Shown in pieces: positions 1 to 45,148 of a DNA stretch of 45,148 nt; the stretch's first letter is position 1; every line of letters starts with the position of its first letter. Origin of the DNA: an uncultured Eubacteriales bacterium (GTDB taxonomy: Bacteria; Bacillota; Clostridia; Christensenellales; Aristaeellaceae); assembly GCA_902785105.1 (NCBI GenBank), contig CACZXF010000051.1:43520-88667 (forward strand). Reading direction: 5' to 3'. The notes under the pieces were generated by a model, which did not search any database, had not been told where the DNA came from, and saw only the letters and a program-made list of their open reading frames with translations. The position numbers and the translations under genes were made by a program.

Positions 1-135
1 TGAGGAGCATCGAGCGCCCGGAAAACAGTCCAGTGGACTGTTTTCAGTGAGATGGGGCCGGCAGGCCCTTGTCAAGTGCCCGTGAGGGCGGATGAGGTGT
101 CCTTGAACAAACATCTCAACAAATCCCTGTTTATC
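1..135 (-). repeat. Core-B dispersed repeat, truncated by window edge
   Basis: This is the reverse orientation of the core-B element seen at 930, 11626, 38658 and 42748. It carries the palindrome GAAAACAGTCCAGTGGACTG (24-46 region), the GGGCGGATGAGG arm, and the shell end AAATCCCTGTTTATC at 121-135. The left part lies outside the window. Confidence 0.9.
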
Positions 136-170
136 AATAATACGCATATACGAAGGAGAGATGACCGACA

Positions 171-899
171 ATGTCCAGGAAGAGTGCGAAATCCAAGGGT
201 TACCGGAAGGCGGCGGCGAAGAAGCCCTATCTGTCGGGGCGGGACATCAAGCTGCTTTGCGTGATTGTGGCGATACTGGCCGTGTGCGTGGCGCTGCTGG
301 TCAACTATGACGACGGGGCGCTGAAGATGAAGGACGGCAAGCTCCCGGACGCGGGCGAGAACTGGCTGATCGTCAACGGCGCCGCCAGCGGCGGCAAGCG
401 CTATTACAAGCTGGGCGAGGCTGGGGAGATCGAGGGCTTCACCCGCGCCGCGGAACCGCTGGTCAGCGACGACAACCTGTTCACCCTGCGCTACACCCCC
501 AAGGACGAGAACAGCCCGATCCAGTCCATCGCCCTGGGCACCACCGCCGCCAAGGCCGACCGCACGGCGGAATACTATCACAACCTGATCGCCTCGCTGG
601 CCCCCGGCGACATCCAGACCGCCAAGGCCGGCGACACCGATTACACCTACTTCACCTATCAGACCACCTTCTTCGCCGATGAGGATCTGACTGCGGAGGA
701 CGCGGAGAAAGCCGAAGCGGCGGAGAACACCGACCGCTATGAGCAGGCCCTCCACGCCTATGTGGACGCGCCCCACAACGCCTCCATCGGCATCACCGTG
801 GTGACCAATGCCAAGAGCGAGGAGGACTTCCTCACCGACGAGCAGCTCATGGACTACGCCGCCAAGGCCATTGAGGCCATACAGGTGGCGGCGAAGTAA
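171..899 (+). CDS. Membrane-anchored extracytoplasmic protein, unknown function
   Basis: I do not recognise this 242-residue protein. A basic N-terminus (about residues 1-26, rich in Lys/Arg/Ser) is followed by one hydrophobic segment at about residues 28-46 (LLCVIVAILAVCVALLV). The remaining 190 residues are polar and acidic, so the likely topology is a short cytoplasmic tail, one membrane helix and an outside domain. The outside part includes the stretch LIVNGAASGGKRYYKLGEAG and ends in an Asp/Glu-rich helix-forming region. The start follows a GAAGGAGAG ribosome binding site with good spacing. It sits alone between two core-B repeats, so there is no operon context to suggest a role. Confidence 0.8.
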   Translation: MSRKSAKSKGYRKAAAKKPYLSGRDIKLLCVIVAILAVCVALLVNYDDGALKMKDGKLPDAGENWLIVNGAASGGKRYYKLGEAGEIEGFTRAAEPLVSDDNLFTLRYTPKDENSPIQSIALGTTAAKADRTAEYYHNLIASLAPGDIQTAKAGDTDYTYFTYQTTFFADEDLTAEDAEKAEAAENTDRYEQALHAYVDAPHNASIGITVVTNAKSEEDFLTDEQLMDYAAKAIEAIQVAAK

Positions 900-929
900 G
901 CCGAAGGGCAACGGGTTCAGTCCTGCCTT

Positions 930-1128
930 ATAAACAGGGATTTGTCGGGGTGTTTGTTCGAGGCCACCTCATCCGCCCTCACGGGCACTTGACAAGGGCC
1001 TGCCGGCCCCATCTCACTGAAAACAGTCCACTGGACTGTTTTCCCGGCGGTCCCAAAAGCCTTCCCCTTGAGGGGAAGGTGCCCCGAAGGAGCGGATGAG
1101 GTGAACCCCCGCCTCCCACTTCTTTCCC
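930..1128 (+). repeat. Core-B dispersed repeat with left shell
   Basis: The left shell TAAACAGGGATTTGTCGGGG starts at about 931. It is followed by CCTCATCCGCCC, the GAAAACAGTCCACTGGACTG palindrome, the CCTTCCCCTTGAGGGGAAGG palindrome and the closing GGATGAGGTG arm. The right shell is degenerate. The element ends against the stop codon of the minus-strand gene at 1131. Confidence 0.9.
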
Positions 1129-1130
1129 CG

Positions 1131-2366
1131 TCAATTGAACTCATAATTATCATCCCTCAGCATTTGCAGGCTGTAGGCCATGACCACGGCGTCGGGGTGA
1201 TACTTTTCGATCCAGGTCTCCAGGGGGGCGACGTCGCGGCGGAGGTCCACGCAGACCACGTTTTTGGCAAGCAGCGACATGAAGGTGCCGATGGGGGCGC
1301 TGTAGGAGTCCTTTAAGAGAAGGACGGTGTAGTCCGGCGCGGCGGGGTTTTCGAAGATGGAGTAGGCCTCCACCTGGCCGTAATAGGTGTAGGCGAGGGT
1401 GTTCCAGGTCTTGCCGGGGTCGGGCTCCAGTCTGTCCGCGCGGGTGACGGCCTCGCGGAAGGGGGCGGTAACGTCCTCCTCGCTGGTGGTGCGCAGGGTG
1501 TGGCGGTGGATTGTGACGTCGGCCTTGGGCCAGTATTCCACGATGTCGTCAGGGGTGACGAAGGCCGTGCCCACGCGCTGGCCGTACTTGCCCATGAACA
1601 GCCTTTCGTGGCGCTGGGTGTTGAGGTTTTCCATATCCAATATGGACGGGTCCAGCGCCGCGCCGGTCATGGCGTTGAGCCTTTCGGCGATGGCCTGGCC
1701 CATGGTGATGGCGGCCAGCGTGGACCAGTGCTGGTCGGTGACCATCAGCAGGTCGCTTAAGTCGTGGCCGCTGTTTGGCAGCACGTCGCGGCTGTCCAGC
1801 ACCTCTATGCCGCCCGCCTTTAATGTCGCTATGGCCTCGTCCGCCATCTCCCCGGCGTGGTCCAGGGGGGCGTAGCCCTCGGGCATCATGGCCGGGTCGT
1901 AGAGGGTGGGATGCTCGTAGACGAACAGGAAGGGGAGGCCGCCGAGCTGCTCATTTCTGAGGGCGACGATGTTCTCCGCGCCTGATTTCAAGGACTGGTA
2001 GGGCGACACGTCGTACAGGTGGCCGGTGGTCAGCGTCAGCATGTTCTGACTGCCGGTGTTGATCATCCGCTTGCCCAGGGCGTATTGAAAGGCGGAGTTG
2101 GCATAGCCCATCTCCGTTTTCAGCCACATGGCGTCCGCGATGCCCGCGGTAAAGCCGCTGATGCGCGCCGCCAGCCGGTCCAGCCGGGTGGGATGCTCGG
2201 GCAGCGTGGCCTTCATGTCGTCGGTCATCTGGACCGATTTTAATATGTCCCGACCGTTGTTCGCCAGCATCACGCCAAAGGCGGTGAAGATGAAGCCTAA
2301 AAAGGCGATGGTCAGTATTGCCGCCGTGACGCGGTGGAGGGGTTTGGATTCGTTTTTATCATTCAT
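1131..2366 (-). CDS. DHHW family SGNH-hydrolase-like protein
   Basis: A 411-residue protein with an N-terminal hydrophobic segment (about residues 12-34, ILTIAFLGFIFTAFGVMLA), indicating membrane anchoring or export. The rest resembles DHHW/AlgX-AlgJ-like SGNH-fold proteins. It has a TDQHWS motif near residue 210, corresponding to the Asp-x-His-Trp signature, and LLLKDSYSAP near residue 350, corresponding to the block holding the catalytic Ser. Family members act in O-acetylation or de-acetylation of extracellular polysaccharides, usually beside an MBOAT acyltransferase. No MBOAT gene is visible here, so the substrate is unknown. It is downstream of gltX, separated by a core-A repeat at 2381-2460. 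The start ATG opens a basic, polar leader (MNDKNESKPLHR) before the helix. Confidence 0.75.
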   Translation of the reverse strand: MNDKNESKPLHRVTAAILTIAFLGFIFTAFGVMLANNGRDILKSVQMTDDMKATLPEHPTRLDRLAARISGFTAGIADAMWLKTEMGYANSAFQYALGKRMINTGSQNMLTLTTGHLYDVSPYQSLKSGAENIVALRNEQLGGLPFLFVYEHPTLYDPAMMPEGYAPLDHAGEMADEAIATLKAGGIEVLDSRDVLPNSGHDLSDLLMVTDQHWSTLAAITMGQAIAERLNAMTGAALDPSILDMENLNTQRHERLFMGKYGQRVGTAFVTPDDIVEYWPKADVTIHRHTLRTTSEEDVTAPFREAVTRADRLEPDPGKTWNTLAYTYYGQVEAYSIFENPAAPDYTVLLLKDSYSAPIGTFMSLLAKNVVCVDLRRDVAPLETWIEKYHPDAVVMAYSLQMLRDDNYEFN

Positions 2367-2380
2367 TGTGAGATAAAGAC

Positions 2381-2460: not shown

Positions 2461-2489
2461 GGTTATTCGTATTCAATTCGTCTAACTTT

Positions 2490-4056: not shown

Positions 4057-5232
4057 TTACTTGATGTCCGTTCCCAGACAGGTCTTGAGTGCGCTGATCT
4101 CGTCCTCCGTCATGCCGATCTTCCGCAGGTAGCCCTCGGCGCAGGCGACGAGGTCGGCGCCATCGAGGGTCTCGAGCTCGAAGGCCTTGGGGAGGAACTT
4201 GCGGATGTTGCCGTCGGCGATGGCCTCCCAGGTCTTTGTGCCGGGCTCGACGCCGTAGAAGTTCTTATAGGTGAGCATGTAATCCATCTCGACTTCGTCG
4301 TAGGACGCGCCCATCAGGCATTCCAGCAGGGCGCAGACGAACCCGGTGCGATCCTTGCCCATGGTGCAGTGGATCATGTAGGGGCCCTCATGGCTGATGC
4401 AGTAGCGCAGGCCCTCGGCCAGGGGACGCTGGAAGCGATCGCCCTCAAATTCCACCGACATGTCCAGCGGGATCACGTTCAGCCTGGAATAATAGGTGTA
4501 GGCATAATTCTCGAAGTTCTTCAGTGAGACCTCGGTGTCGCCCAGGTTCATGATCGTGCTGATGCCCGCCTTGTTGACAGCGGCATCGGCCTCGAAGTTG
4601 CGGCCATATTGCGGGTCCACGGGGGAGGAGGAGCGGTACAGCACGTTCGCGCCCATGCCGGTGGTGGCGATATTGCGGAAGTTGGCGTATTCCTCATCGG
4701 ACAGGTTTGGATAATCCTCCCGGACAACGGACATCTCGAGCTGATGCAGCGCCATCTCATCCAGATAGCCGCCCTTCTCCTTCAGCGACAGCCTGATCGA
4801 AACGCCGTCCTTATAGGCGTCCTTATAGTCCCAGACGTAGCCGGGGGCCACGTCGGTATTGCGTTTTTCGGCGATGTCCAGCCAGCCGGTCAGGTTGCCC
4901 ATGTTGATGGCGAGCACCGCGGCGCCCGCATATATGCTTTCGGGCGGCAAAATGGCAAAAACAAAAAGGCCGGCATCCACATAGTTGTAATCCTTACAAA
5001 GCGGCATGTCGATGCTGTGGCCGGCGATGTCCACGGTGACGATGTCGCCGTATTCATAGCCAAGCGAGAACAGCGTGTCACCGGAAATATCCATCGTGAT
5101 GTTGCCGAATACAGTGATCTCCCGAATCCCGGCCTCCACCGGCGGGCAGGTCTCGATCTCCGCGAAGGCCGGCGCGGTGAGCATCAGCAGCGCGGCAAGG
5201 GCAAGAGACAACAGACGATAAAGCTTCTTCAT
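4057..5232 (-). CDS. Secreted tyrosine-phosphatase-like protein, paralog 1
   Basis: A 391-residue protein with a clear signal peptide (MKKLYRLLSLALAALLMLTA then PAFA-E). ATG at 5232 is preferred over one ten codons upstream because it follows GGAGGG and starts the signal peptide shared by the paralogs. Residues of about 35-130 (VFGNITMDI, GYEYGDIVTV, MPLCKDYNYVDAG, LAINMGNL) resemble the C-terminal beta domain of SAM hydroxide adenosyltransferases. The second half is a dual-specificity-type phosphatase: VLYRSSSPV, then MIHCTMGKDRTGF near residue 290 with the CX5R(T) P-loop intact. Phosphatase activity is expected from the motif. The substrate (phosphoprotein, phosphoinositide or other) is unknown. 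It is the last and most gltX-proximal of four tandem paralogs. Confidence 0.85.
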   Translation of the reverse strand: MKKLYRLLSLALAALLMLTAPAFAEIETCPPVEAGIREITVFGNITMDISGDTLFSLGYEYGDIVTVDIAGHSIDMPLCKDYNYVDAGLFVFAILPPESIYAGAAVLAINMGNLTGWLDIAEKRNTDVAPGYVWDYKDAYKDGVSIRLSLKEKGGYLDEMALHQLEMSVVREDYPNLSDEEYANFRNIATTGMGANVLYRSSSPVDPQYGRNFEADAAVNKAGISTIMNLGDTEVSLKNFENYAYTYYSRLNVIPLDMSVEFEGDRFQRPLAEGLRYCISHEGPYMIHCTMGKDRTGFVCALLECLMGASYDEVEMDYMLTYKNFYGVEPGTKTWEAIADGNIRKFLPKAFELETLDGADLVACAEGYLRKIGMTEDEISALKTCLGTDIK

Positions 5233-5266
5233 GACTTTTCCCTCCGTTATGGCTTGATGCATTGGA

Positions 5267-5378
5267 CAAACAGGGATTTATCTGGGAGATGCCTACTCTC
5301 CTGTAGGGGCGGCGTTGCGCCGCCCGCCGGGTATGACGATGCGTTTCGTTAGGGGCGGGCGCCGAAACGGCGCCCCTA
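5267..5378. repeat. Core-A repeat with one shell end
   Basis: The shell AAACAGGGATTTATCTGGGA begins at about 5268. It is followed by both core-A hairpins, ending at CCCCTACA. The opposite shell is missing because the element abuts the 3' end of phosphatase paralog 2, whose TAG stop (5376-5378) lies inside the core. Confidence 0.9.
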
Positions 5379-6554
5379 CAATTTGATGTCCGTTCCCAGC
5401 CGGGTCTTTAACGCGGTGATCTCGTCCTCGGTCATGCCGATCTTCAGCAGATAGGCTTCGGCGGCGGCGGCGAGGTCCACGCCCTGGAGGCTTTCGATGC
5501 CGAAGGCCCTGGGGAGGAACTTGCGGATGTTGCCGTCGGCGACGGCCTCCCAGATCTCGGAGCCGGGCTCGGCGTTGTACAGGTACTTGTAGCTGGCCAT
5601 GTAGTCCTCCTCCACCTCTTCGGCGGAAGCGCCCATCAGGCATTCCAGCACGCCGCAGACGAAACCGGTGCGATCCTTGCCCAGGGTGCAGTGGACCAGA
5701 TAGGGACCCTCGTGGCTGGCGAAGAAGCGCAGGCCGTCGGCCAGGGGATGCTGGAAGCGCACGTCTTCAAAGTCCACGGCCATGTCCAGACCCATCACGT
5801 CCACCTTGGAATAATAGGTGTAGGCGTAATCCTCATAGCCCTTTATGATGAGGTCGCTGTCGCCCAGGTTGATGATGGTGGAAATGCCGGCGGCGTTGAT
5901 GGCGGCGTCGGCCTCGTGGTTGCGGCCATACTGCGGGCACACGGGGGAAGCGGAGCGGTACAGCACATTCGCGCCCATGCCGGTGGTGGTGACGCAGCGG
6001 AAGTTGGCGTATTCCTCATCCGTCAGATCGGGATAGTCCGACCGCTTGAGGGAAATGGTGATCTCGTGCAGCTTGAGCTGCTCCAGATAGGCGCCCGCCT
6101 CCTTCAGCGAAATTTTGATGGCGACGCCGTCCTTGTAGGCGTCGTTATAGTGCCAGACGTAGCCGGGGGCCTCCTCGGTCTTTTCCTTCTCGGCAATGCC
6201 CAGCGCGACGGCGATGTTGCCCATGTTGATGGAGACGGCGGGGGTGTCGCTGTTGCCGGTGTCCGGCGAGGCGGCGCACAGGAGGTATTCGCCAATATCC
6301 ACATTGTTGTAATCCAGGCAGAGCGGCATGTCGATGACGTGGCCGCCGACGTCCACGGTGAGCATGTCGCCGTAATTATAGCCCAGGTTCAGCAGGGTGT
6401 CCCAGGAGATGTCCAGCACAATGTTGCCGAATTGGTCGATCTTCCGGATGCCGGCCTCCACAGTCGGGCATTCCTCGATCTCCGCGAAGGCCAGCGCGGA
6501 GAACATCAGCAGCGCGGCCAGCATCAGCGCCAGCGCACGATACAGTTTTTTCAT
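5376..6554 (-). CDS. Secreted tyrosine-phosphatase-like protein, paralog 2
   Basis: A 392-residue paralog with signal peptide MKKLYRALALMLAALLMFSA then LAFA-E and a strong TAAGGAGGAAAGAGAC leader before ATG. The beta domain shows QFGNIVLDI, GYNYGDMLTV and DYNNVDIGEY. The phosphatase part has VLYRSASPV and LVHCTLGKDRTGF (CX5RT intact, about residue 290). The shared C-terminus GMTEDEI-ALKTRLGTDIK is extended by one Leu, because the codons TTG TAG come from the abutting core-A repeat rather than the TAA seen after DIK in the other paralogs. It probably acts outside the cytoplasm. Substrate is unknown. Confidence 0.85.
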   Translation of the reverse strand: MKKLYRALALMLAALLMFSALAFAEIEECPTVEAGIRKIDQFGNIVLDISWDTLLNLGYNYGDMLTVDVGGHVIDMPLCLDYNNVDIGEYLLCAASPDTGNSDTPAVSINMGNIAVALGIAEKEKTEEAPGYVWHYNDAYKDGVAIKISLKEAGAYLEQLKLHEITISLKRSDYPDLTDEEYANFRCVTTTGMGANVLYRSASPVCPQYGRNHEADAAINAAGISTIINLGDSDLIIKGYEDYAYTYYSKVDVMGLDMAVDFEDVRFQHPLADGLRFFASHEGPYLVHCTLGKDRTGFVCGVLECLMGASAEEVEEDYMASYKYLYNAEPGSEIWEAVADGNIRKFLPRAFGIESLQGVDLAAAAEAYLLKIGMTEDEITALKTRLGTDIKL

Positions 6555-6589
6555 GTCTCTTTCCTCCTTATAAAGGGTGGATCGTGGAG

Positions 6590-6612
6590 CAAACGGGGAT
6601 TTGTCTGCGCGA
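6590..6612. repeat. Orphan shell end without core
   Basis: AAACGGGGATTTGTCTGCG at about 6591 matches the shell sequence of the modular repeats, but no palindromic core follows. It lies between paralogs 3 and 2 and is probably a decayed or deleted element. Confidence 0.55.
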
Positions 6613-6653
6613 CGAGGCCGCCGCAGGGACGCGATTTGCGAGCCGGCCGATGA

Positions 6654-7832
6654 TTATTTGATGTCCGTTCCCAGCCGGGTCTTGAGGGCGCTGATCTCAT
6701 CCTCGGTCATGCCGATCTTCAGCAGGTAGGCTTCGGCGCAGGCGGCGAGGTCGGCGCCTTCAAGGCTCTCGACGTCGAAGGCATAGGGGAGGTACTTGCG
6801 GATGTTGCCATTGGCGACGGCCTCCCAGGTCTCCGTTTCGGGCTCGATGCCATAGAAGTTATAATAGCTGACCATGTAATCCGCCTCCAGCTCCTCCATG
6901 GACGCGCCCATCAGGCTTTCCAGCACGGCGCAGGCGAAGCCGGTGCGATCCTTGCCCAGTGTGCAGTGGACCAAATAGGGACCCTCGTGGCTCGCGAGAT
7001 AGTGGAAGCCCTCGGCCAGAGCATCCCGGAAGCGTTCAGTCTCAAAGTCCACCGCCATGTCCAGCGGGATCACATCCAGCTTAGAATAAAAGCTGTAGGG
7101 ATAATCCACATAGCCCTTCATGACGGCTTCGCTGTCGCTCATGTTCATGACGGTGCTGATGCCCGCGGCGTTGACGGCGGCGTCCGTCTCATGGTTGCGG
7201 TTGTATGCCGGGTTTACGGGGGAAGCGGAGCGATACAGCACGTTCGCGCCCATGCCGGTGGTGGCGACATTTCGGAAATTGGCGAACTGTTCATCCGTCA
7301 GGCCGGGATAGTCCTCCCGCGCGTTGGAGATCTTGAGCTGGTGCAGCGCCAATTGCTCCAGATAGCCGCCCTTCTCCCTCAGCGACAGCTTGACCGGGAT
7401 ATTGTCGCTGTATTTCTCATCGTAATCCCAGAAGAAGCCGGGCTCCTCGTCGATCCCGCTCTTTTTGGCGATCTCCGTCCAGGTGGCCAGGTCACCCATG
7501 TTCAGGGCGGCGGACGCGGTCTTCACGGTCTCAGTGTTGTCCACCGAGGCGTTGCATACGACCAGCGCGCCGACATCCACATTGGTGTAATCCTCGCAGA
7601 GCGGCGCGTAGAAATTAATGTCGCCGATATCCACTCTGAGGATGTCGCCGTATTCATAGCCCAGATCCAGCAGTGCGTCGATAGTGATGTCAAACAGGAT
7701 GTTGCCGAATTGGTCGATCTTCATGACGCTGGTCTCTACCGGCGGGCATTCCGCGATCTCCGCGAACACCGGCGCGGTGAGCGCCAGCATCGCCGCCTAC
7801 GTCAGCGCCAGTACGCGATACAGTTTTCTCAT
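6654..7832 (-). pseudogene. Secreted tyrosine-phosphatase-like paralog 3 with amber codon in signal peptide
   Basis: The frame homologous to the other paralogs starts at ATG 7832 (MRKLYRVLALT) and meets TAG at 7799-7797, codon 12. It continues AAMLALTAPVFAEIAECPPV. The paralogs have Leu at this position, so one TTG-to-TAG change would explain it. The remaining 378-codon frame is intact, including QFGNILFDI, VLYRSASPV and LVHCTLGKDRTGF, so the lesion is recent, or is bypassed, or is a sequencing error. Restart at ATG 7790 would give a signal peptide without its basic n-region and thus probably no export. TAG is an ordinary terminator here (gltX and paralog 2 use it), which argues against code reassignment. 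Confidence 0.8.
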
Positions 7833-7866
7833 AGTTATTTCTCCGTTACAATAGTGAAGCGGGGGG

Positions 7867-8014
7867 AAAACAGGAATTTGTCTGGGAGTTACCCGCTCTC
7901 CTGTAGGGGCGGCGTTGCGCCGCCCGCCCGGTAGAACGCGCCGTTTCGCAGGGAGGCGGGCGCCGAAACGGCGCCCCTACAGGGTTGGTGTGACTCCCCT
8001 ACAAATTCCAATTT
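7867..8014. repeat. Core-A repeat with both shell ends
   Basis: A complete example of the modular element. The left shell (AAACAGGAATTTGTCTGGGA) and right shell (CTCCCCTACAAATTCCAATT) are inverted with respect to each other. Between them lie the two core-A hairpins with a short linker (GGTAGAACGCGCCGTTTCGC). It sits between phosphatase paralogs 4 and 3. Confidence 0.9.
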
Positions 8015-8030
8015 ACCAGCCGACTGAAAA

Positions 8031-9212
8031 CTACTTGATGTCCGTTCCCAGGCGGGTCTTCAGCGCGTCGATCTCCTCGGCGGTCATGCCGATCTTCAGC
8101 AGGTAGGCCTCGGCGCAGGCGGCAAGGTCGGCATCCTCCAGGCTTTCGATGCCGAAGGCCTTGGGGAGGAACTTGCTGATGCTGTTTCTGATGACGCCGT
8201 CATAGGCCGCCGTTCCGGGGGCGATGCCGTAGTAATTATAATAGCTGACCATGTAATCCGCCACCACCTCGTCGGCGGTCGCGCCCATCAGGCATTCCAG
8301 CACGGCGACGGCGAAGCCCGCCCGGTCCTTGCCCACGGTGCAGTGGATCAGGAAGGGGGTCTCGTGACTGGCGAGGAAGCGGTAGCCCTCGGCCAGCTTG
8401 CCCTGGAAGTCGGCCTTCTCAAAGTCCACCACCATGCCCAGCGGGATGACGTCCAGCTTGGAATAATAGCTGTAGGCGTAATCCTCGTAGCCCTTCATGA
8501 CGACCTCGCTGTCCGCCATGTTCATGACGGTGCGTATGCCCGCGGCGTTGACGGCGGCGTCCGCCTCTCGGTTGCGCTTGTATTTCGGGTTGACCGGGGA
8601 GGAGGAGCGGTAGAGCGCGTTCGCGCCCATACCGGTGGTGCTGACGGGGCGGAAATTGGCGTACTGCTCGTCCGTCAGATCGGGATAGTCCTCCCGCTTG
8701 ATGGACAGATTGTACTGGTGCATTTTGAGCTGCTCCAGATAGCCGCCCTTCTCCTTCAGCGACAGCGTGGCCGCGACGCCGTCCCGCCAGGCCTCGGTCA
8801 GGTGCCAGGTGTAACCGGGCGCTTCCTCGATCACAGTCTTTTCGGCAATGCCCAGCCAGGTGGCCAGATCGCTGCCGTTGATGGAGAGGGTGACCCTGCT
8901 CTCGCCGTTCTTGCTGGTCCTGGAGCTTTCGACGCGCATGACCAGTGCCCCGGTGTCCACGTCGTTGTAATCCGTGCATATCGGCATGTCGAGAGCCTTG
9001 CCGCCGATGGTCACGGTGATGATGTCGCCGTATTCATAGCCCAGGGCCAGCAGGTCGTCCCCATTGATGTCCAGCACGATATTGCCGTATTTCTGAATCT
9101 CCCGGATGCCGTTCTCCACCGGCGGGCAGGCCTCGATCTCCGCAAAGGCCAGCGCGGTCAGCGCCACCAGCGCGGCCAGCGTCAGCGCCAGCAGGCGGAA
9201 CAGCTTTCTCAC
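8031..9212 (-). CDS. Secreted tyrosine-phosphatase-like protein, paralog 4
   Basis: A 393-residue paralog closest to galM. It begins at GTG (9212), preceded by GAGGGGG overlapping the galM 3' end, and only 3 bp separate it from the galM stop, so the two are almost certainly co-transcribed. The signal peptide is MRKLFRLLALTLAALVALTA then LAFA-E. The beta domain is the clearest of the four: KYGNIVLDI, GYEYGDIITVTIGG, DYNDVDTGALV, LSINGSDLATWLGI. The phosphatase P-loop reads HCTVGKDRAGF. The nucleophilic Cys and Arg of CX5R remain, but the usual Thr/Ser after Arg is Ala, which in this superfamily slows phosphoenzyme hydrolysis. It may therefore be a slow or substrate-trapping enzyme. Confidence 0.85.
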   Translation of the reverse strand: MRKLFRLLALTLAALVALTALAFAEIEACPPVENGIREIQKYGNIVLDINGDDLLALGYEYGDIITVTIGGKALDMPICTDYNDVDTGALVMRVESSRTSKNGESRVTLSINGSDLATWLGIAEKTVIEEAPGYTWHLTEAWRDGVAATLSLKEKGGYLEQLKMHQYNLSIKREDYPDLTDEQYANFRPVSTTGMGANALYRSSSPVNPKYKRNREADAAVNAAGIRTVMNMADSEVVMKGYEDYAYSYYSKLDVIPLGMVVDFEKADFQGKLAEGYRFLASHETPFLIHCTVGKDRAGFAVAVLECLMGATADEVVADYMVSYYNYYGIAPGTAAYDGVIRNSISKFLPKAFGIESLEDADLAACAEAYLLKIGMTAEEIDALKTRLGTDIK

Positions 9213-11595: not shown

Positions 11596-11625
11596 CCCCC
11601 TTTTTTTGAGCCAAAAGTGACACTG

Positions 11626-11816
11626 ATAAACAGGGATTTGTCGAGATGTCATTCGTAACCCACCTCATCCGCCCTCACGGGCACTTGACAAGGGCCTGCC
11701 GGCCCCATCTCACTGAAAACAGTCCACTGGACTGTTTTCCGGGCGCTCGATGCTCGAAGGTGCCCCGAAGGGGCGGATGAGGTGGATTCCCGCTCACCTC
11801 TGCAAATTCCAATTTG
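11626..11816. repeat. Core-B repeat with both shell ends
   Basis: Left shell ATAAACAGGGATTTGTCG, core-B arms (CCTCATCCGCCC to GGGCGGATGAGG) with the GAAAACAGTCCACTGGACTG palindrome, and right shell GCAAATTCCAATTTGTC. It ends 17 bp before the stop codon of the minus-strand gene at 11833. Confidence 0.92.
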
Positions 11817-11832
11817 TCATCCGCCGCAAGCG

Positions 11833-13428: not shown

Positions 13429-14120
13429 AGCAGCGTCCCCCTTGGAGAAGGATATTGTACGGAGAGATAAATTGGGATTTGTCGAGCTGACAAACTATCC
13501 CCTGTAGGGGCGCCGTTTCGGCGCCCGCCCCCAACGAAACGCATCGTACTACCCGGCGGGCGGCGCAACGCCGCCTGGTACTTCGCCCTCTCTCCCCCCA
13601 CCAGCATGGGCCGGGTGCGGGCGGCGGCGATGTGGGCATGGCCGATATGGTCGATGGAAAGGCGGACAGGGACGGCGACGCGCTTTAAGTGCATCCCGAT
13701 GAGGGTCAGCCCCACGTCGAGCCCGGCGTCGGCGGAGATAGACAGCACAGCCACGGGGTCCGTCATGCCGTGCCAGGCGGCGGTGGCCAGGGAGCCGCCG
13801 GCCTTAGGCTGGGGCACCACGCAGACGATCTCATAGCCCCGCTTTTCGGCGGCGGCCCGCTCCATGATGAGGGCGCGGTTCAGATGCTCACAGCACTGGA
13901 AGGCCACGTCGAAGCCCTGCTCCCGCGCCGCGTCCAGCCCCGCCTTCGCCAGGGCCTCGCCCAGCTCATAGGTGGAATTGTGGCCGATGACGCCCCCGGC
14001 GATCTCCGAAGAGCTCCCGCCGATCACCAGCAGCTTCACGGGATTCAGGCCCTCCCGCTTCGCGTTCAAAAGATCATTTATAGCCTGTCGGGCCTCGTTG
14101 TAGATGGATTCGGTTGACAT
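13401..14120 (-). CDS. UPF0340 / TIGR01440 family protein with repeat-encoded C-terminal tail
   Basis: Residues 1-181 match the YwlG-type UPF0340 family, whose biochemical role is not established: LLVIGGSSSEIAGGVIGHNS, FQCCEHLNRALIMER, VVPQPKAGGSLATAA, SIDHIGHAH and RTRPMLVGGERAKY, where the family normally ends. From codon 182 (13577) the frame runs into a core-A repeat and encodes AALRRPPGSTMRFVGGGRR and further residues, adding 58 foreign residues before stopping at 13401 inside the next gene. AGGAGG precedes the ATG. The native part is about 543 bp (13578-14120). The tail is probably accidental but keeps the ribosome running up to the next start codon. Confidence 0.85.
   Translation of the reverse strand: MSTESIYNEARQAINDLLNAKREGLNPVKLLVIGGSSSEIAGGVIGHNSTYELGEALAKAGLDAAREQGFDVAFQCCEHLNRALIMERAAAEKRGYEIVCVVPQPKAGGSLATAAWHGMTDPVAVLSISADAGLDVGLTLIGMHLKRVAVPVRLSIDHIGHAHIAAARTRPMLVGGERAKYQAALRRPPGSTMRFVGGGRRNGAPTGDSLSARQIPIYLSVQYPSPRGTLLCSIVVVRS
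13468..13577. repeat. Core-A repeat with one shell end, inside the UPF0340 frame
   Basis: The shell AAATTGGGATTTGTCG is followed by both core-A hairpins (CTGTAGGGGCGCCGTTTCGG ... GGCGGGCGGCGCAACGCCGCC). At the UPF0340 side the usual TAGGGG border, which would have given an in-frame TAG, is altered to CAGG, so the frame stays open. Confidence 0.85.
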
Positions 14121-15935: not shown

Positions 15936-15987
15936 CAAGCGCAAACACCACCAAATGCTAATATTAAAGCGATTCAGATAGGGCGGT

Positions 15988-16156
15988 AATCAGGTATTTA
16001 TCGGAGAGGGGTCACGCCCTCTCAGTCAGCTTCGCTGACAGCTCCCCCAGAGGGGGAGCCAAGGGGGAACCGTTCTCCTGGCTCCCCTTTTAAGGGGAGC
16101 TGTCAACCGCAGGCTGACTGAGAGGTTCGTCGCCCCAATAAATCCCTGTTTTTCGC
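15988..16156. repeat. Core-C repeat with both shell ends
   Basis: Left shell AATCAGGTATTTATCGGAG, then core C (CCCTCTCAGTCAGCTTCGCT, GACAGCTCCCCCAGAGGGGG, GGCTCCCCTTTTAAGGGGAG, ending GCTGACTGAGAGG) and right shell CCCAATAAATCCCTGTTTTT. With the promoter below, this accounts for most of the 411-bp gap 15936-16346. I see no gene in it. Confidence 0.85.
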
Positions 16157-17900: not shown

Positions 17901-17982
17901 CCCGTAGGGGCGGCGTTTCGCCGCCCGCCAGGTACGACGTATCGCATCGCGCAGGGCGGGCGGCGAAACGCCGCCCCTACAG
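17901..17982. repeat. Core-A repeat after murA
   Basis: CGTAGGGGCGGCGTTTCGCC at the left and CGGCGAAACGCCGCCCCTAC at the right. Here both hairpins have the GGCGGCG form, so the element is close to a perfect large palindrome. No shell ends. It directly follows the murA stop and could act as a terminator-like barrier. Confidence 0.9.
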
Positions 17983-24364: not shown

Positions 24365-24441
24365 CCCTGTAGGGGCGGCGTTTCGCCGCCCGCCCTCCGG
24401 GCCTGAGGGTTCGCCGCTTTTCAAAACAATTCCAATTCATT
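24365..24441. repeat. Half core-A repeat with one shell-like end
   Basis: CTGTAGGGGCGGCGTTTCGC and CGCCCGCCCTCC form a single hairpin. ACAATTCCAATTCATTC (24426-24442) resembles the right shell. It lies between the two copies of the rbfA/nrnA junction. Confidence 0.8.
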
Positions 24442-25445: not shown

Positions 25446-25597
25446 ACGGGTTTCTGAACGTCCGCAAGCCCACGGGAGGCGCGTCAGAGCTCCCGCCACA
25501 TTGCCAGGTCTGTAGGGGCGGCGTTGCGCCGCCCGCCCTCCCACGAAGCGCATCGGCTTTGACGACCATAAAAGAGGCACTGGGAGGCGAAGCATGA
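25442..25597 (+). other. Bridging ORF: duplicated truB 5' end fused to a repeat
   Basis: A 51-codon frame that begins MNGFLNVRKPTGGASE, a diverged copy of the truB N-terminus (MNGFLNVYKPTGRTSS). It runs through a core-A hairpin (CRGGVAPPALPRSAS) and ends in TGA overlapping the truB ATG. It starts as ATGA with the nrnA stop and ends as ATGA with the truB start, so ribosomes could be handed from nrnA to truB. The peptide itself is unlikely to be functional. Confidence 0.6.
25509..25545. repeat. Half core-A repeat
   Basis: TCTGTAGGGGCGGCGTTGCG with CGCCGCCCGCCCTCC forms one core-A hairpin. It lies between the duplicated truB start and the true truB start. Confidence 0.85.
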
Positions 25598-27133: not shown

Positions 27134-27769
27134 ATGGACTGGCACTGGGTGGACATGGAGCACAGCCCCCGAAAGGCTCATTTCGACTACTTCCGGAGCC
27201 TGCAAAACCCAATGGTGGGCGTGACCGTCGATGTGGACGTGACGAAGCTGGTTCAGCGTTGTAATTCGGAGGGCGTGTCCTTCTACCTCGCCTTCATGCA
27301 CACCGCCGCACTGGCGGCCAACGGTGTGCCGGAGCTTCGACGGCGGATACGTGATGGAAAAGTGGTGGAATACGACATCTGCGGCACCTCCCACGTGGAA
27401 CCCCTGCCCGACGGCAGCTATGCCTATTGCACGCTCTGGCACGACAGGGATTGGAATGAATACTTTCCCTACGCGGAGGGAGCGCGTAAAAAATGCCGGG
27501 AGCATCCCTCCATCGACGAGGATGAGGACGTAGAGGGGCTGTATTTCGTCACCTGCGTGCCCTGGCTCCACTATTCCCAGCTCATACAGCCCACCGCCGG
27601 AGGCGATGAGACCAACCCCCGCATCTCATGGGGCCGCTATGAAGCGGACTGGCGGGGGCGGCTGATGCTGCCCGTGACGCTGCTGTGTCATCACGCGCTG
27701 GTGGACGGGATACACATTGCGCAATTCTACGAGGCTTTGAACGAACGACTGCTACACGGAGGCGAATGA
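27134..27769 (+). CDS. Chloramphenicol acetyltransferase (CAT)-family acyltransferase
   Basis: A 211-residue homolog of trimeric type A CAT enzymes, which acetylate chloramphenicol from acetyl-CoA. The catalytic motif HHALVDGIHIAQF is intact (about residue 188), and the family blocks NPMVGVTVDVDVT, SFYLAFMHTAALAANGVPEL and NPRISWGRYEADWRGRLMLP are present. Many chromosomal CAT-like proteins do not confer resistance, so the substrate should be left open. It begins 3 bp after ribF and ends next to the following start, so it is part of the same operon. Confidence 0.85.
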   Translation: MDWHWVDMEHSPRKAHFDYFRSLQNPMVGVTVDVDVTKLVQRCNSEGVSFYLAFMHTAALAANGVPELRRRIRDGKVVEYDICGTSHVEPLPDGSYAYCTLWHDRDWNEYFPYAEGARKKCREHPSIDEDEDVEGLYFVTCVPWLHYSQLIQPTAGGDETNPRISWGRYEADWRGRLMLPVTLLCHHALVDGIHIAQFYEALNERLLHGGE

Positions 27770-27771: not shown

Positions 27772-28542
27772 ATGAAGCGGATAATTGCGGCGGCACTGGC
27801 CGTGCTGATGGTACTGACACTGACTGCGGCGGGACTGGCGGAGGAGACGGACATGGCAGAGCTTCGGGACCTGCGCAAGAGCTCGGAGGACGCCATCCCC
27901 GAGATCAAGGCCCCCAAGCCCTCCGAGACCCCGGAGCCGGGGGAGCCCACGCCCTCGCCCACGCCGGACATGACGGTCTACGAGACGCTGCAAAAGGGCA
28001 TGAACAGCGACGCTGTGCGGCGGCTCCAGGCACAGCTCGCGGCGCTGGGGTATCTCCAGGGCAGCGCGGACGGCGTCTACGGCGGCAAGACTGAGGCGGC
28101 GGTGCAGGCCTTCCAGCAGGCGTCGGGCCTGCCGGTCACCGGCATCGCGGACAGCGAGACCCAGCGGAAGCTCTACGCCGCCAAGGCCCAGGCGATGGTG
28201 TTTGTCAGCTACGACCCGCTGAAATACGACGCCACACAGCCCGACGGCAGCCAGTTCGAGGGCACGCGGGTGGAGTTCACCGGCTATGTCATGCAGGTGC
28301 TGATCGACGACACCTATGCCGAATCTGCCGGGAACTACACCGTCATGCGCGTGGCCACTAAGGGCAAGTGCTACGACGTGGTGTACGTCTACGGCTTCCG
28401 CAGCGCGGAGGCGACGCCCATCCGCGAGGGCAACACCGTGCGCGTGCAGGGCATCACCCGGAGCCACATCATCTATCAGAACGTCAAGGGCGGCTATGTC
28501 GATCTGCCCCGGGTGGAGGCGGAGAGCATTACGGTGGGATAA
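27772..28542 (+). CDS. Secreted peptidoglycan-binding protein with C-terminal OB-like domain
   Basis: 256 residues from ATG 27772 (after GGAGGCGAATGAGC). Signal peptide residues 1-24 (MKRIIAAALAVLMVLTLTAA). A Pro/Glu-rich linker (about 45-66, PKPSETPEPGEPTPSPTP). A PG_binding_1 domain at about 68-132 (LQKGMNSDAVRRLQAQLAAL, DGVYGGKTEAAVQAFQQASG). The last ~110 residues (VEFTGYVMQVLID, KGKCYDVVYVYG, REGNTVRVQGITRSH) read like an OB-fold beta-barrel; this is inference. It likely sits in the wall. The TAA stop lies within the shell of the next repeat. Confidence 0.82.
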   Translation: MKRIIAAALAVLMVLTLTAAGLAEETDMAELRDLRKSSEDAIPEIKAPKPSETPEPGEPTPSPTPDMTVYETLQKGMNSDAVRRLQAQLAALGYLQGSADGVYGGKTEAAVQAFQQASGLPVTGIADSETQRKLYAAKAQAMVFVSYDPLKYDATQPDGSQFEGTRVEFTGYVMQVLIDDTYAESAGNYTVMRVATKGKCYDVVYVYGFRSAEATPIREGNTVRVQGITRSHIIYQNVKGGYVDLPRVEAESITVG

Positions 28543-28656
28543 ACAGGGATTTATCGGGGAGATGCACACGTTCCTGTAGGGGCGGCGTTGCGCCGCCCGC
28601 CGGGTAGGACGTGTCGTCTCGCTGGGGGCGGGCGCCGAAACGGCGCCCCTACCCCT
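28539..28656. repeat. Core-A repeat with left shell
   Basis: ATAAACAGGGATTTATCGGG starts at 28539 and supplies the TAA of the preceding gene. Both core-A hairpins follow, ending GGCGCCCCTACC. The right shell is absent. Confidence 0.9.
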
Positions 28657-29264: not shown

Positions 29265-29414
29265 GATAAATGGGGATTTGTCGGGGAGTTATCCGCTCTC
29301 CTGTAGGGGCGGCGTTGCGCCGCCCGCCCGATAGAACGCGACATTTCGCAGGGGGCGGGCGCCGAAACGGCGCCCCTACAGGGATAGTTCGACTCCTTGA
29401 CAACTTCCAATTTC
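29265..29414. repeat. Core-A repeat with both shell ends
   Basis: Left shell ATAAATGGGGATTTGTCGGG, both core-A hairpins and right shell CTTGACAACTTCCAATTTCC. It fills the gap between rpmB and the rpe stop codon. Confidence 0.9.
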
Positions 29415-29416
29415 CC

Positions 29417-37614: not shown

Positions 37615-38120
37615 TTGCCCTTCGCCTCCTGCCTGCGCTTCATTTCCTCGGTGGCGTCCTCGATCATCTTGTCCACGTAGAGTATGCCGTCCAGGTGGTC
37701 GATCTCGTGGCACAGGCAGACCGCCAGCATCTTCTCGCCGGTGATCTCAAAGGGCTTGCCGTTTCGGTCCTGGGCCTTTACCGTCACCTTTTCCGGACGG
37801 ACCACCCGACCGGAGCGGCCGGGGACGGAGAGACAGCCCTCGATGACCGTGCACTCGCCCTCGCTGGAGACGATCTCCGGGTTGACCAGCTCCAGCACCT
37901 TGGGCTCCTCGCTCTGCTCGATGATGCCGAGATCGATGACCACGGCCCGCTTCAGCACGCCCACCTGGGGCGCGGCCAGGCCCACGCCGTCGCCGGCGCG
38001 CATGGTCTCCGCCATGTCGTCCAGCAGGATGGCCAGCCGCTCGTCGAATTTGTCCACCTTCCGCGCGTGCTTGCGCAGGATGGCATCCTTGTCAATTTCC
38101 ATGATTGCGCGTATCGCCAT
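37611..38120 (-). CDS. def: Peptide deformylase, copy 2 of tandem pair
   Basis: It removes the N-formyl group from nascent proteins. 169 residues with all three motifs: [21 protein letters not shown] and [15 protein letters not shown] (HExxH). Start ATG 38120 is chosen because the product aligns with the tandem neighbour (MAIRAIMEIDKDAILRKHAR against [20 protein letters not shown]). No strong ribosome binding site lies at ideal spacing, so coupling to the upstream copy (15 bp apart) is likely. Confidence 0.95.
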   Translation of the reverse strand: MAIRAIMEIDKDAILRKHARKVDKFDERLAILLDDMAETMRAGDGVGLAAPQVGVLKRAVVIDLGIIEQSEEPKVLELVNPEIVSSEGECTVIEGCLSVPGRSGRVVRPEKVTVKAQDRNGKPFEITGEKMLAVCLCHEIDHLDGILYVDKMIEDATEEMKRRQEAKGK

Positions 38121-38135
38121 ATTGAATATCGGGGA

Positions 38136-38630
38136 TTATGCCTCCCCGTCCCCTTCCTGTTCTTCCTCTTCCAGCTTGTCGGTGACGTCCTCGATCATCT
38201 TGTCCACGTAGAGTATGCCGTCCAGGTGGTCCAGCTCGTGGCAGAGGCAGCGGGCCAGCAGGCCGTCGCCCTCCACCTCGATGTGGCGGCCCTTCCGGTC
38301 CTGGGCGTGGACGCGCACCTTTTCGGGGCGTGCCACGGTGCAGCGGCGGCCGGGCACGGAGAGACAGCCCTCCACGTCCACGACCTCGCCCTCGGCCCAC
38401 AGAATCTCCGGGTTCACCAGCTCGATGAGCCCCTCGCCCACGTCGATCACCACGCAGCGCTTCAGTATGCCCACCTGGGGCGCGGCCAGGCCCACGCCGT
38501 CCGCCTCGTACATGGTGTCCGCCATGTCGTCCAGCAGCACCGCCAGCCGCTTGTCAAATTTGTCCACGCGACGCGCGTGCTTGCGCAGTATGTCGTCCGT
38601 GCCCATTTCTACGATTTTGCGAATTGCCAT
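38136..38630 (-). CDS. def: Peptide deformylase, copy 1 of tandem pair
   Basis: 164 residues from ATG 38630, preceded by AAGGATGG. The in-frame extension upstream to 38741 is repeat sequence. Motifs [21 protein letters not shown] and [15 protein letters not shown] are intact, so both copies should be active. The C-terminus is very acidic ([13 protein letters not shown]). The two copies are clear paralogs from a tandem duplication. Some bacteria keep a second Def with different inhibitor (actinonin) sensitivity; whether that applies here is unknown. Confidence 0.95.
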
Positions 38631-38657: not shown

Positions 38658-38893
38658 GATAAACAGGGATTTGTCGGGGAGTTTGTGCGGGCCCACCTCA
38701 TCCGCCCTCACGGGCACTTGACAAGGGCCTGCCGGCCCCATCTCACTGAAAACAGTCCACTGGACTGTTTTCCGGGCGTTCGATGCTCCTGGGCTGGGCT
38801 ACCGGTAACCAAAAGCCTTCCCCTTGAGGGGAAGGTGCCCCGAAGGGGCGGATGAGGTGAACCCCCGTCTCCCCGATAAATTCCAATCTGTCA
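38658..38893. repeat. Core-B repeat with both shell ends
   Basis: Left shell GATAAACAGGGATTTGTCGG, core B with GAAAACAGTCCACTGGACTG and CCTTCCCCTTGAGGGGAAGG plus the GGATGAGGTG arm, and right shell CCGATAAATTCCAATCTGTC ending at the priA stop codon (TGA at 38893-38891). Confidence 0.92.
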
Positions 38894-41110: not shown

Positions 41111-41141
41111 AGCATTTGAGCGCAGGTGCGCGGTCGGTTGG

Positions 41142-41304
41142 AAAATTGGAAGTTGTCGGGGTGACGACTCCCTCAGTCACGCTTCGCGTGACAGCTCCCT
41201 CTGAGAGGGAGCCTTTTGGAAGGCGTCCTAAGGCTCCCTCTCAGAGGGAGCTGTCGCCGAAGGCGACTGAGGGAGTCTTCCTCCCCTACAAATACCTTCG
41301 TTTA
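41142..41304. repeat. Core-C repeat with both shell ends
   Basis: Left shell AAAATTGGAAGTTGTCGGGG, core C (GACTCCCTCAGTCACGCTTC, GCTCCCTCTGAGAGGGAGCC, its inverted partner, and CGACTGAGGGAGTC) and right shell CCCCTACAAATACCTTCG. It occupies nearly the whole coaBC-priA gap and is the best example of the shell around core C. Confidence 0.92.
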
Positions 41305-41314
41305 TGCAGACACA

Positions 41315-42499: not shown

Positions 42500-42514
42500 G
42501 GATATGCACCCTTT

Positions 42515-42625: not shown

Positions 42626-42747
42626 GAATGCGACAGCTCGCACCCGGCTGGAGAAGAAATGTCAACCCCGATTTTAGCACAACAAGCGAAAGCCGATCTG
42701 TGCAATCGGGTTTCGCCCTGCTGTGCGGTATTGAATTGTTGGGATGT

Positions 42748-42945
42748 CGATAAACAGGGATTTGTGGGGGTGTTTGTTCGAGGCCACCTCATCCGCCCTC
42801 ACGGGCACTTGACAAGGGCCTGCCGGCCCCATCTCACTGAAAACAGTCCACTGGACTGTTTTCCAAAAGCCTTCCCCTTGAGGGGAAGGTGCCCCGAAGG
42901 GGCGGATGAGGTGACCTACCCGCTCACCCCTACAAATTCCAATTT
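42748..42945. repeat. Core-B repeat with both shell ends
   Basis: Left shell GATAAACAGGGATTTGTGGG, core B with both palindromes, and right shell CCCTACAAATTCCAATTTAC just beyond the rpoZ stop codon. Confidence 0.92.
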
Positions 42946-42954
42946 ACCGAAATA

Positions 42955-43173: not shown

Positions 43174-43192
43174 GGTGCAAATACCTCCTGAT

Positions 43193-43831: not shown

Positions 43832-43889
43832 AGGAAATTTCCCCTTTATTCATATGTATGTATAAATCACGTGACTATTCAGCGTCCTG

Positions 43890-44041
43890 ACAAATCGGAA
43901 TTTGGCGGGGAGTCAAACCAACCTTGTAGGGGCGCCGTTTCGGCGCCCGCTCCTAACGAAACACATCGTCCTACCCGGCGGGCGGCGCAACGCCGCCCCC
44001 TACAGGAGAGCGGATAACTCCTCGACAAATCCCCATTTACA
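43890..44041. repeat. Core-A repeat with both shell ends
   Basis: Left shell CAAATCGGAATTTGGCGGGG, both core-A hairpins (TTGTAGGGGCGCCGTTTCGG ... GGCGGGCGGCGCAACGCCGC) and right shell CCTCGACAAATCCCCATTTA. Lies between yicC and gmk. Confidence 0.9.
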
Positions 44042-44060
44042 GGGCTGAATAGCTGCCAAA

Positions 44061-44930
44061 TCACTCTACATTCTGAAGCTGTTCCCGCAGCTTCTCGATC
44101 TCCGCCTTCATGTCAACCGTCAGGCGGGTGATGGGGATGTCCTGGGACTTGGAGGAGATGGTGTTGGTCTCCCGGTTCAGCTCCTGGACCAGGAAGTCCA
44201 GACGGCGGCCGATGGGCTTTTCGTCCTCGAAGAGCTTGCGCAATGCCTCCACATGGCTGCCCAGGCGGACGATCTCCTCGTCGATGGCGCTGCGGTCGGC
44301 CATGACGGCGACCTCGGTCAGCAGGCGCGTCTCGTCCATCTGCTGGCCGATCAGCTCATCAACGGCGGCTTTCAGCCGGTTCCGGTATTCCTCCACGGTC
44401 TGGGGATAGCGGGCCTTGATTTCGCCGGTCATCCGCTCGATTTCATCCACATGGGCCGAAAGGTCCCGCTTCATGGCCTCGCCCTCCCGGCGGCGCATGT
44501 CCACGAGCTGGTCCAGCGCCGCGTTCAGCGTCTCCACCATCAGCGCGGTCACGGCTTCCTGGTCCTCCTCGGCCTCCGTCACCGTCAGCACGTCCGGCAG
44601 CTTCGCGATGGCCATCAGGCTCCGGTCGTCCTTGAGTCCCGCCTCCGAAACCGTGCCCAGCGCGCGGGCGTAGGCGTCGTAGAGCGCCCGGTCCACGTTC
44701 ACCGTCCGGGCGTCCGAGCGCAGGTTTTTGTAGGTGGCGAACACGTCCACATGCCCCCGGCTCAGCCGCGCCCCGATGGCCTTGCGGGCCGCTTCCTCAG
44801 CGAACATCAGGTTTCTGGGCATACGAAAGGCCAGGTCCAGAAACCTGTGGTTGACGCTCTTCAATTCTATCGTCAATTGCCGCCCGTCGATCTCCCGAAA
44901 GGCGCGGCCATAGCCCGTCATGCTCAGCAT
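44061..44930 (-). CDS. yicC: YicC family endoribonuclease-like protein
   Basis: 289 residues from ATG 44930 (MLSMTGYGRAFREIDGRQLT). The N-terminal YicC-like domain has SVNHRFLDLAFRMP, and the C-terminal DUF1732 part has GRRLDFLVQELNRETNTISS. In E. coli YicC is reported as an RNase acting on a small RNA. In Firmicutes it heads the gmk-rpoZ block. An in-frame TTG further upstream is less likely because the conserved family start is MxSMTGYG. Confidence 0.93.
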   Translation of the reverse strand: MLSMTGYGRAFREIDGRQLTIELKSVNHRFLDLAFRMPRNLMFAEEAARKAIGARLSRGHVDVFATYKNLRSDARTVNVDRALYDAYARALGTVSEAGLKDDRSLMAIAKLPDVLTVTEAEEDQEAVTALMVETLNAALDQLVDMRRREGEAMKRDLSAHVDEIERMTGEIKARYPQTVEEYRNRLKAAVDELIGQQMDETRLLTEVAVMADRSAIDEEIVRLGSHVEALRKLFEDEKPIGRRLDFLVQELNRETNTISSKSQDIPITRLTVDMKAEIEKLREQLQNVE

Positions 44931-44969
44931 AACCCCGATATCCTCCCCCAAAAGTCACTTACCCCTTTT

Positions 44970-44998
44970 ATTATAACACATCCCGCTTCTTTTGCCTA
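44970..44998 (-). promoter_or_regulatory. Promoter of the yicC-gmk block
   Basis: On the minus strand TAGGCA (44998-44993) and TATAAT (44975-44970) with a 17-bp spacer, about 40 bp before the yicC start. The -35 matches consensus at four of six positions. Confidence 0.65.
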
Positions 44999-45048
44999 TG
45001 CGGTAGCAGAAAATTAAAGTTGAAAGGGAACGATTCAGTCTGTTCTGG

Positions 45049-45148
45049 TAAATTGGAATTTGTCGGGGAGACGGGGGTTCACCTCATCCGGCGCTTCGGT
45101 GCCGCGCCTCAAATCTTCGATTTGAGCCGTGGCAGTCTGGCCTTTGGC
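45049..45148. repeat. Shell end and start of another repeat core, cut by window edge
   Basis: AAATTGGAATTTGTCGGGGA is a clear shell end, followed by CACCTCATCCGG and a core with CGCTTCGGTGCCG and AAATCTTCGATTTGAG hairpins that differs from cores A-D. This may be a further core type or a core-B variant. The rest lies outside the window. Confidence 0.75.

Follow-up and report, generated by a model that had tools for sequence, protein, structure and literature searches.

A 45,148-nt stretch of genomic DNA from an uncultured Eubacteriales bacterium of the Aristaeellaceae (assembly GCA_902785105.1, contig CACZXF010000051.1, positions 43,520 to 88,667; hereafter the window) carries intergenic palindromic repeats that are probably IS66-type miniature inverted-repeat transposable elements (MITEs) with modular palindromic cargo, assembled as a layered mosaic. 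This reading is carried by shared ends, one-way nesting, 8-bp target duplications, empty sites in relatives, and the same ends beside IS66 genes of related genomes. In the proposed arrangement, the outermost layer, where present, is a terminal repeat beginning GTAACTATTCAG, which would be recognised in trans by an IS66-family transposase, with insertion of the unit giving an 8-bp target duplication. An asymmetric shell of 22–26 nt would sit 7–8 nt inside the conserved 12-mer of the outer repeat and enclose either a palindromic core, of which there are many mutually unrelated kinds (among them A, B, C and arrays of iterated 7-mers), or almost nothing. Because the transposase would need only the ends, the centre may be replaced, lost or enlarged, and every successful combination of ends and core would be amplified as its own family.

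A sequence-only reading of the window had claimed that cores A, B and C are flanked by the same inverted ends. A pattern for these shell ends (AAACAGGGATTTGTCGGGG, up to three mismatches) matched 13 times in the window, where 100 shuffles averaged 0.01 matches, and a position-weight scan at 10 bits or above gave 23 shell ends, two of them weak (17 bits at 6588 and 11 bits at 7689). The whole source genome (131 contigs, 92% complete, 3.44 Mb) contained 424 + 365 = 789 matches, compared with 2 for the reversed pattern. Element anatomy was analysed in a 0.41-Mb sample consisting of the window and 20 stretches picked for holding shell matches. A trained 26-nt matrix made 202 end calls in this sample at 16 bits or above, and none with the reversed control; at 12 bits, 177 non-overlapping shell ends were obtained. 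Pairing yielded 70 inverted shell pairs of 53–270 bp and left 111 end calls single, many of which repeat a counted end in its weaker reverse reading. All copies of A, B and C listed by the sequence-only reading are present with shell ends. The ends are thus shared as claimed, but they are consistently asymmetric, with GATAAACAGGGATTTGTCGGGG on the left and GATAAATTGGAATTTGTCGGGG (reverse complement) on the right, and the window copies at 929, 5265, 13466, 28538 and 41140 show only one end above threshold. Three sites distinguish the two arms, and both sides are retained at these sites in 51, 44 and 59 of the 70 elements, respectively.

The shell is in the main characteristic of the genus, with variants in individual species. 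Among 27 same-genus species, searched for the shell motif with up to two mismatches, the sister species G001 gave 60 matches (G and L numbers are our own handles for genomes and loci), followed by G009, G025 and G007 with 23, 14 and 8, mostly of the variant TAAATTCTGATTTGTCGGGG, while each remaining species gave 0–6. Outside the genus, one or two matches were found in four genomes, approximately as rare as the control pattern. The closest named relatives by PriA are metagenome-assembled genomes of rumen and gut Clostridia (77–83% identity).

Sorting of the interiors of the 70 paired elements gave seven core types by our own labels, which rest on short words chosen by us: A in 25 elements, B in 22, H in 4, C in 4, F in 2, A+E in 2, E in 1 and G in 1, with 9 near-empty. 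Cores A, B and C are unrelated palindromes, as the sequence-only reading had stated, with further types beside its three. Core B, read from the element listing, is a mosaic of swapped sub-hairpins, and among the nine near-empty elements four look like B minus everything between two CACCYC-like repeats, a state that could reflect either slippage across the palindrome or the condition before insertion. Shell arms do not sort by core. The nearest-neighbour same-core fraction of the arms was 0.487 versus 0.423 after permutation (p = 0.14, 51 elements), and some A shells agree with a B or a C shell at every one of the 36 positions compared. The consensus arms of A and B match exactly over 22 nt on each side, and those of C and of the near-empty elements differ from them at one or two positions. 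Separate shell clades for each core, which the sequence-only reading had named as a finding that would count against a modular unit, were not found.

The layers nest in one direction. The shell lay outside A, B, 7-mer arrays and C in 18, 17, 6 and 1 cases, respectively, the IS66-type end lay outside the shell in 7 cases and outside A in 5, and a 7-mer array lay outside A in 1; each of these counts stands against 0, with no reversed nesting seen among the cases counted. The coreless state in sister species is the plain hairpin AAATTCTGATTTGTCGGGGAGCGACAAATCAGAATTT (L154, L157). Cores also occur without a shell, in 22 of 62 clusters for A (some by chance), in 6 of 43 clusters for B (by eye one real element comprising two clusters, the other four appearing to be coding) and in at least three cases, by eye, for C. 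Within a core type the linkers are similar and the orientation is mostly constant, with sub-hairpins flipping in B (by eye). Cores were therefore probably not swapped copy by copy, each core–shell join having arisen a few times and then been amplified.

The terminal repeat beginning GTAACTATTCAG lies approximately 15–20 bp outside the shell in some elements. With up to three mismatches, the outer motif was found at 35 of the 177 shell ends, compared with 10 ends in a reversed flank control and 11 in a reverse-complement one, and a spacing of 7–8 nt is found in 24 of the 35; with a matrix threshold and a spacing of 6–9, 35 of 177 ends were again positive, against a control mean of 0.8 and maximum of 3. 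By element, IS66-type ends are present in 20 of 70, on both sides in 9 and on one side in 11. In a scan for 8-bp duplications, the offsets of the four best cells (2–3 of the 70 elements each) always sum to 38, which places the duplication on average 19 bp beyond each shell end. Among 46 candidate inverted pairs, eight have at least 6 of 8 duplicated bases, all of them shell-bearing (seven with A, one with C), and the other 38 have 0–4.

The duplication signal was also present in a larger set that included a second 20 stretches of the source genome, partly picked for shell matches, and 45 stretches of G001, of which 18 were picked around shell matches and 27 were not. With up to two mismatches, 7–8 of 8 bases were duplicated in 12 of 486 pairs in the source genome, versus 1 of 684 for the reversed motif (Fisher p = 2e-4), and in 36 of 398 pairs in G001, versus 1 of 398 (Fisher p = 3e-10). 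With up to one mismatch, the counts were 8 of 16 versus 0 of 3 controls in the source genome (p = 0.23, the controls being too few) and 32 of 51 versus 0 of 4 controls in G001. The 12 units with duplications in the source genome are short (127–256 bp) and contain no transposase gene. The duplication-flanked ends in G001 enclose at least five interior types: the 36 pairs, two of which overlap, comprise 15 with shell and C, 3 with shell, 7-mers and A, 2 with shell and other 7-mers, 1 with shell and 7-mers, 1 with shell and B, 12 with C2 and D but no shell, one tandem double and one chance-looking hit. Where a duplication reveals insertion, the end is the IS66-type repeat outside the shell and not, as had been supposed from the sequence alone, the shell itself. 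The idea of one unit with exchangeable cargo holds in outline, in that one set of ends accompanies many cores, with the mobilising ends lying approximately 15–20 bp further out.

The complete unit in the window (43871–44056, reverse strand, 186 bp) has the ends GTGACTATTCAG and GCAGCTATTCAG and contains a shell with core A at 43889–44041 (reverse strand); units of this kind reach 15–18 bp past the shell. It is flanked by the duplication copies TAAATCAC (43863–43870) and CAAATCAC (44057–44064), which match at 7 of 8 positions. Comparison with relatives revealed empty sites: the locus spans approximately 207 bp here, compared with 17 bp in L051 and approximately 20 bp in L052 and L060, and the unit is also lacking in L053. 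L054 appears to hold another unit at this site, with similar outer ends and an A-like core and without a shell. Two further loci contain units of unusual construction. At L034 12094–12318, an IS66-ended unit holds a second, nested left IS66 end, and its outer duplication AGCCGGGC is perfect. At L031 2173–2228, a 56-bp minimal unit consists of two IS66-like ends around one shell half (GATAAACAGGGATTTATC, itself a hairpin), with no 8-bp duplication (1 of 8 bases).

Some IS66 transposase loci of relatives carry the same type of end. Fourteen loci matching IS66 transposases were examined, 13 of them above the family cut-off, and five (L134, L136, L138, L143 and L144) hold an exact match to GTNRCWRYTCAG. 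In G006 and G018, which are represented among these five, the end GTAACT[A/G]TTCAGTC[CT]ACCCCGAATAAT lies 130–190 bp from the transposase match, and the G018 end is identical over more than 20 bp to the unit end at L040 1984. G017 contains a 543-aa open frame, with an IS66 transposase domain, that has inverted GTTACCATTCAC ends on its two sides. In G009, G020 and G017, the matches cover most of the IS66 profile. An IS66 transposase would accordingly be the enzyme that moved the units, and shells without IS66 ends would either descend from such units or have moved by another route.

Several observations weigh against this explanation. In the source genome, the only IS66 transposase match is a 73-aa fragment, and no match was found in G001. 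Metagenome assemblies often lose insertion sequence copies. No 8-bp duplication accompanies the G017 copy, G006 and G018 show one end only, and the full-length IS66 genes of G009 and G020 have no GTAACTATTCAG end within 1.5 kb on each side. In the same scan that detected outer ends in 20 elements, the other 50 of 70 had none on either side, although one of these (L050 2498) shows IS66-like ends at another spacing in the larger pair search. As a group, these 50 retain no inverted similarity beyond the shell (mean 3.76, against 4.07 for mismatched pairs). Core B fits least well, with IS66 ends in only 2 of 22 elements and no representative among the 12 duplication-bearing units of the source genome, and the 20 B shells without outer ends are the least diverged of the larger groups (mean 3.15 mismatches of 40). 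Finally, the published IS66 end begins GTAAGCG and not GTAAC (PMC11946415).

Divergence within core A was examined alongside that of B. A shells with outer ends (13 of 25; the Fisher test counted the two A+E elements with A, giving 13 of 27) average 4.23 mismatches of 40, and the 12 without average 6.58 (p = 0.06). The A copies without IS66 ends being more diverged, decay of the outer ends is plausible for core A. For A of both kinds versus B, p = 0.013; for A with ends versus B, the difference is not significant (p = 0.32). Since B is the least diverged large group yet mostly lacks IS66 ends, simple decay fails for B, and loss of outer ends by decay in all remaining elements was rejected, given the missing residual similarity and the low divergence of B.

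The most serious alternative, though a rather unlikely one in our estimate, is that two systems are superposed, with IS66 moving the IS66-ended units and some other enzyme moving shell-ended ones, mainly B, without detectable duplication. It would account for the low divergence of B (20 of 22 without IS66 ends) and for the strong conservation, asymmetry and sister-species variants of the shell. Some insertion boundaries also fall at or near the shell. At the core B element 38658–38892 (forward strand), the side facing priA starts within about 2 nt of the boundary; at the core B element 42749–42948 (forward strand), sequence alignable to a relative begins within 6 and about 2 nt of the shell; and at L038 16708 the part that aligns to G004 (orthology uncertain) directly abuts one side of the shell. 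At L050 15987, by contrast, comparison with two empty sites, one paralogous and one related, shows 17 and 12 nt of additional sequence beyond the shell, which therefore does not always mark the boundary. In the search for more such sites, one flanking gene returned distant relatives and a paralogue only, and another proved to be a gene of many copies, which makes orthology uncertain there; the comparisons derived from them were read with caution. The 50 elements without outer ends gave no duplication signal at offsets of 0–39 on both sides for lengths of 3, 4, 5, 6 and 8 bp, and the shell was therefore rejected as the end of a duplication-generating element.

The search for an enzyme likewise speaks against two systems. 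The source genome contains no Y1 (PF01797) and no IS110 (PF01548) match, three PF01609 pieces, and one rve (PF00665) match interrupted by a stop. The five loci holding the PF01609 pieces, the rve match and the IS66 fragment, inspected with up to 1.5 kb on each side, showed no shell end reaching 12 bits. A shell-flanked transposase or repetitive extragenic palindromic (REP)-associated tyrosine transposase (RAYT), for which the sequence-only reading had proposed a search, was thus rejected in the source genome among PF01797, PF03050, PF01609, PF01548 and PF00665, two of these families being unmatched and three represented by fragments or a stop-bearing frame. Its statement that the window holds no transposase agrees with the 30 open reading frames (ORFs) scanned with Pfam, out of 104 overlapping ORFs of at least 120 aa that include 74 unscanned ones. 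The single source genome carries several hundred shell ends, despite having few transposase matches in the five families. A second route for shell-ended units is possible.

A related and unlikely reading is genus-wide one-way stacking, in which new units would enter the apex of a hairpin and the shell would have come to act as ends in its own right, mobilised separately and without target duplication. The order would then be IS66 end, shell, and 7-mer arrays or B or C, from outside inwards, with 7-mers outside A. Hairpin sites hold 10 of the 34 duplication-flanked insertions in G001, compared with 4 of 68 control positions (p = 0.002); the count is 34 and not 36 because L248 (apparently coding) and L249 (near a stretch end) were dropped. 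Nine of the ten lie in one repeated hairpin, GAAATCC-GCAA-GGATTTC, which has 58 intact copies in 0.62 Mb, and none of the 12 duplication-bearing units of the source genome lies in a hairpin site. Apex insertion is therefore a lead for explaining the nesting rather than a demonstrated mechanism. The G001 hairpin repeat was hit repeatedly by IS66-type MITEs, at the target GAAATCCG or CAAATCCG (L194, L199, L203, L242, L243, L245, L247, L249 and L251) and is often flanked by CATTCTCCATT-like arrays; at L251 13079–13395, a tandem MITE pair shares one hairpin site.

REPs consist of GTAG followed by a G+C-rich hairpin. Core A has this form and occurs without the shell in the fraction of clusters given above, and 35 Y1 matches were found in 17 of the 41 genomes searched. 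Spread of the cores as REPs by a RAYT of the Y1 type, with the shell as a by-product, is nevertheless highly improbable: the source genome has no Y1 gene, none of 10 inspected sister-species Y1 loci (of the 35) is flanked by GTAGGGG palindromes (exact word only), and the shell, the other cores and the 8-bp duplications would be left unexplained. Six GTAGGGG words occur in three of the Y1 loci, none followed by a palindrome. A RAYT origin was rejected on these absences from the source genome and from the 10 inspected loci.

Equally little credence is given to hairpins retained for a function such as termination or RNA stability, with the shell as a selected structural motif. The two elements tested have very stable folds, the unit at 43871–44056 forming a single long hairpin (z = -6.8) and the B element at 42749–42948 one long RNA hairpin (z = -10.7), and 22 of 32 double arm changes are compensated, approximately 10 being expected. 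However, the 32 double changes are no excess over the 30.7 expected under independence, convergent genes are not enriched around the elements (14 of 70 versus a background of 57 of 216), tandem gene pairs show no strand bias (17 and 18), and the empty sites and 8-bp duplications mark insertions. A functional terminator was rejected on the lack of gene-orientation enrichment and an Rfam scan of the window that gave no match except two tRNAs. Unrelated families with ends made similar by chance or convergence, a reading that the mutually unrelated cores might invite, are already contradicted by arms that do not cluster by core and that agree over 22 nt between A and B, left–right asymmetry included, with C and the near-empty elements differing at only one or two positions.

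Among known systems, IS66 elements have inverted repeats of 20–30 bp beginning GTAAGCG and 8-bp direct repeats (PMC11946415). The present elements resemble IS66-family MITEs in their GTAAC/GTTAC ends, their 8-bp duplications and the same ends beside some PF03050 matches of relatives; they differ in the layered exchangeable palindromes, the second conserved subterminal shell, the lack of IS66 ends in most copies of the source genome, and an end other than the published GTAAGCG. BOX elements of Streptococcus have the structure boxA-boxB(n)-boxC, with boxE/F ends and boxD modules also in S. suis (PMC3049150). They share, in architecture only, conserved end modules with variable inner modules, as well as hairpin folds, a proposed mobilisation by insertion sequences with similar ends, and repeats inserted into each other; the inner modules of BOX elements belong to only one or two types, whereas seven core types accompany one shell here. 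Neisserial intergenic mosaic elements (NIME) likewise combine short repeats, the 20-bp dRS3 (almost 700 copies), with RS families of 30–160 bp into an intergenic mosaic (PMC3898611). There, dRS3 is a phage integration target, ATTCCC(N8)GGGAAT, in contrast to the IS66-type outer ends, 8-bp duplications and different shell consensus found here. Correia/NEMIS elements have 26-bp inverted repeats enclosing interiors of varying length (PMC2229807, PMC3049150), an arrangement similar to ours; their interiors are few and related, and those found here are many and unrelated. Core A is REP-like in its GTAG and hairpin, and its inverted pairs resemble bacterial interspersed mosaic elements (BIMEs), the difference being that no RAYT was found in the source genome or beside GTAGGGG palindromes in the 10 inspected loci of relatives.

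The remaining window elements vary in completeness. Shells with core A lie at 7865–8017 (forward strand; one side with a weak IS66-like outer-end trace, score 5.9) and 29265–29416 (forward, without an IS66 outer end). Core A with a left shell end and no right end is found at 5265–5379 and 28538–28652 (both forward), the latter overlapping the stop codon of an ORF ending at 28542, and core A with one shell end, the other missing, at 13466–13575 (forward). A further shell with core B lies at 11625–11818 (forward), and a left shell end with core B and an undetected right end at 929–1113 (forward; end coordinate set by eye). Core C occurs within a shell at 15985–16154 (reverse), where each side has a weak IS66-like outer end (scores 8.5 and 6.2), and at 41140–41308 (forward; right arm diverged, end set by eye), an element absent from L052, L053, L054 and L060. 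A shell end at 45047–45072 (forward) follows an IS66-type outer end (score 13.4), the element continuing past the window, and a single shell end lies at 110–135 (reverse). Without a shell are core A palindrome pairs at 2382–2458 and 17904–17980, single core A arms at 23783–23808, 24369–24394 and 25512–25537 (all forward), and A-type palindromic cores at 30202, 35124 and 42593. Such shell-less cores are perhaps what the sequence-only reading called an end-less fourth type, D, whose sites it did not locate.

In the window, four tandem paralogues of approximately 390 aa occupy 4057–9212 (reverse strand); the two tested match the tyrosine phosphatase family PF13350, one of them also matching SAM_HAT_C, and core A elements sit between some of the copies. 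Beside priA, 37648–38630 comprises two tandem diverged copies of one stretch (76–81% DNA identity). Repeats supply or overlap stop codons at 28538–28542, in an ORF with a peptidoglycan-binding domain, and at 38891–38893, in priA. The ORF at 27134–27769 (forward) matches PF00302, a family with the chloramphenicol acetyltransferase (CAT) acyltransferase fold (62 bits), and has an ORF resembling flavin adenine dinucleotide (FAD) synthetase and a peptidoglycan-binding ORF as neighbours.

Catalogues of bacterial interspersed palindromes usually list them as distinct families. The repeats of this one genus suggest how such families may be related: the mobilising end stays constant, a shell lies subterminally, and the palindromic cores are interchangeable. 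Such a relation would make testable how the interiors of MITEs change, whether hairpin apices are preferred sites of landing or exchange, and whether a subterminal repeat of a MITE can turn into a new mobile end.

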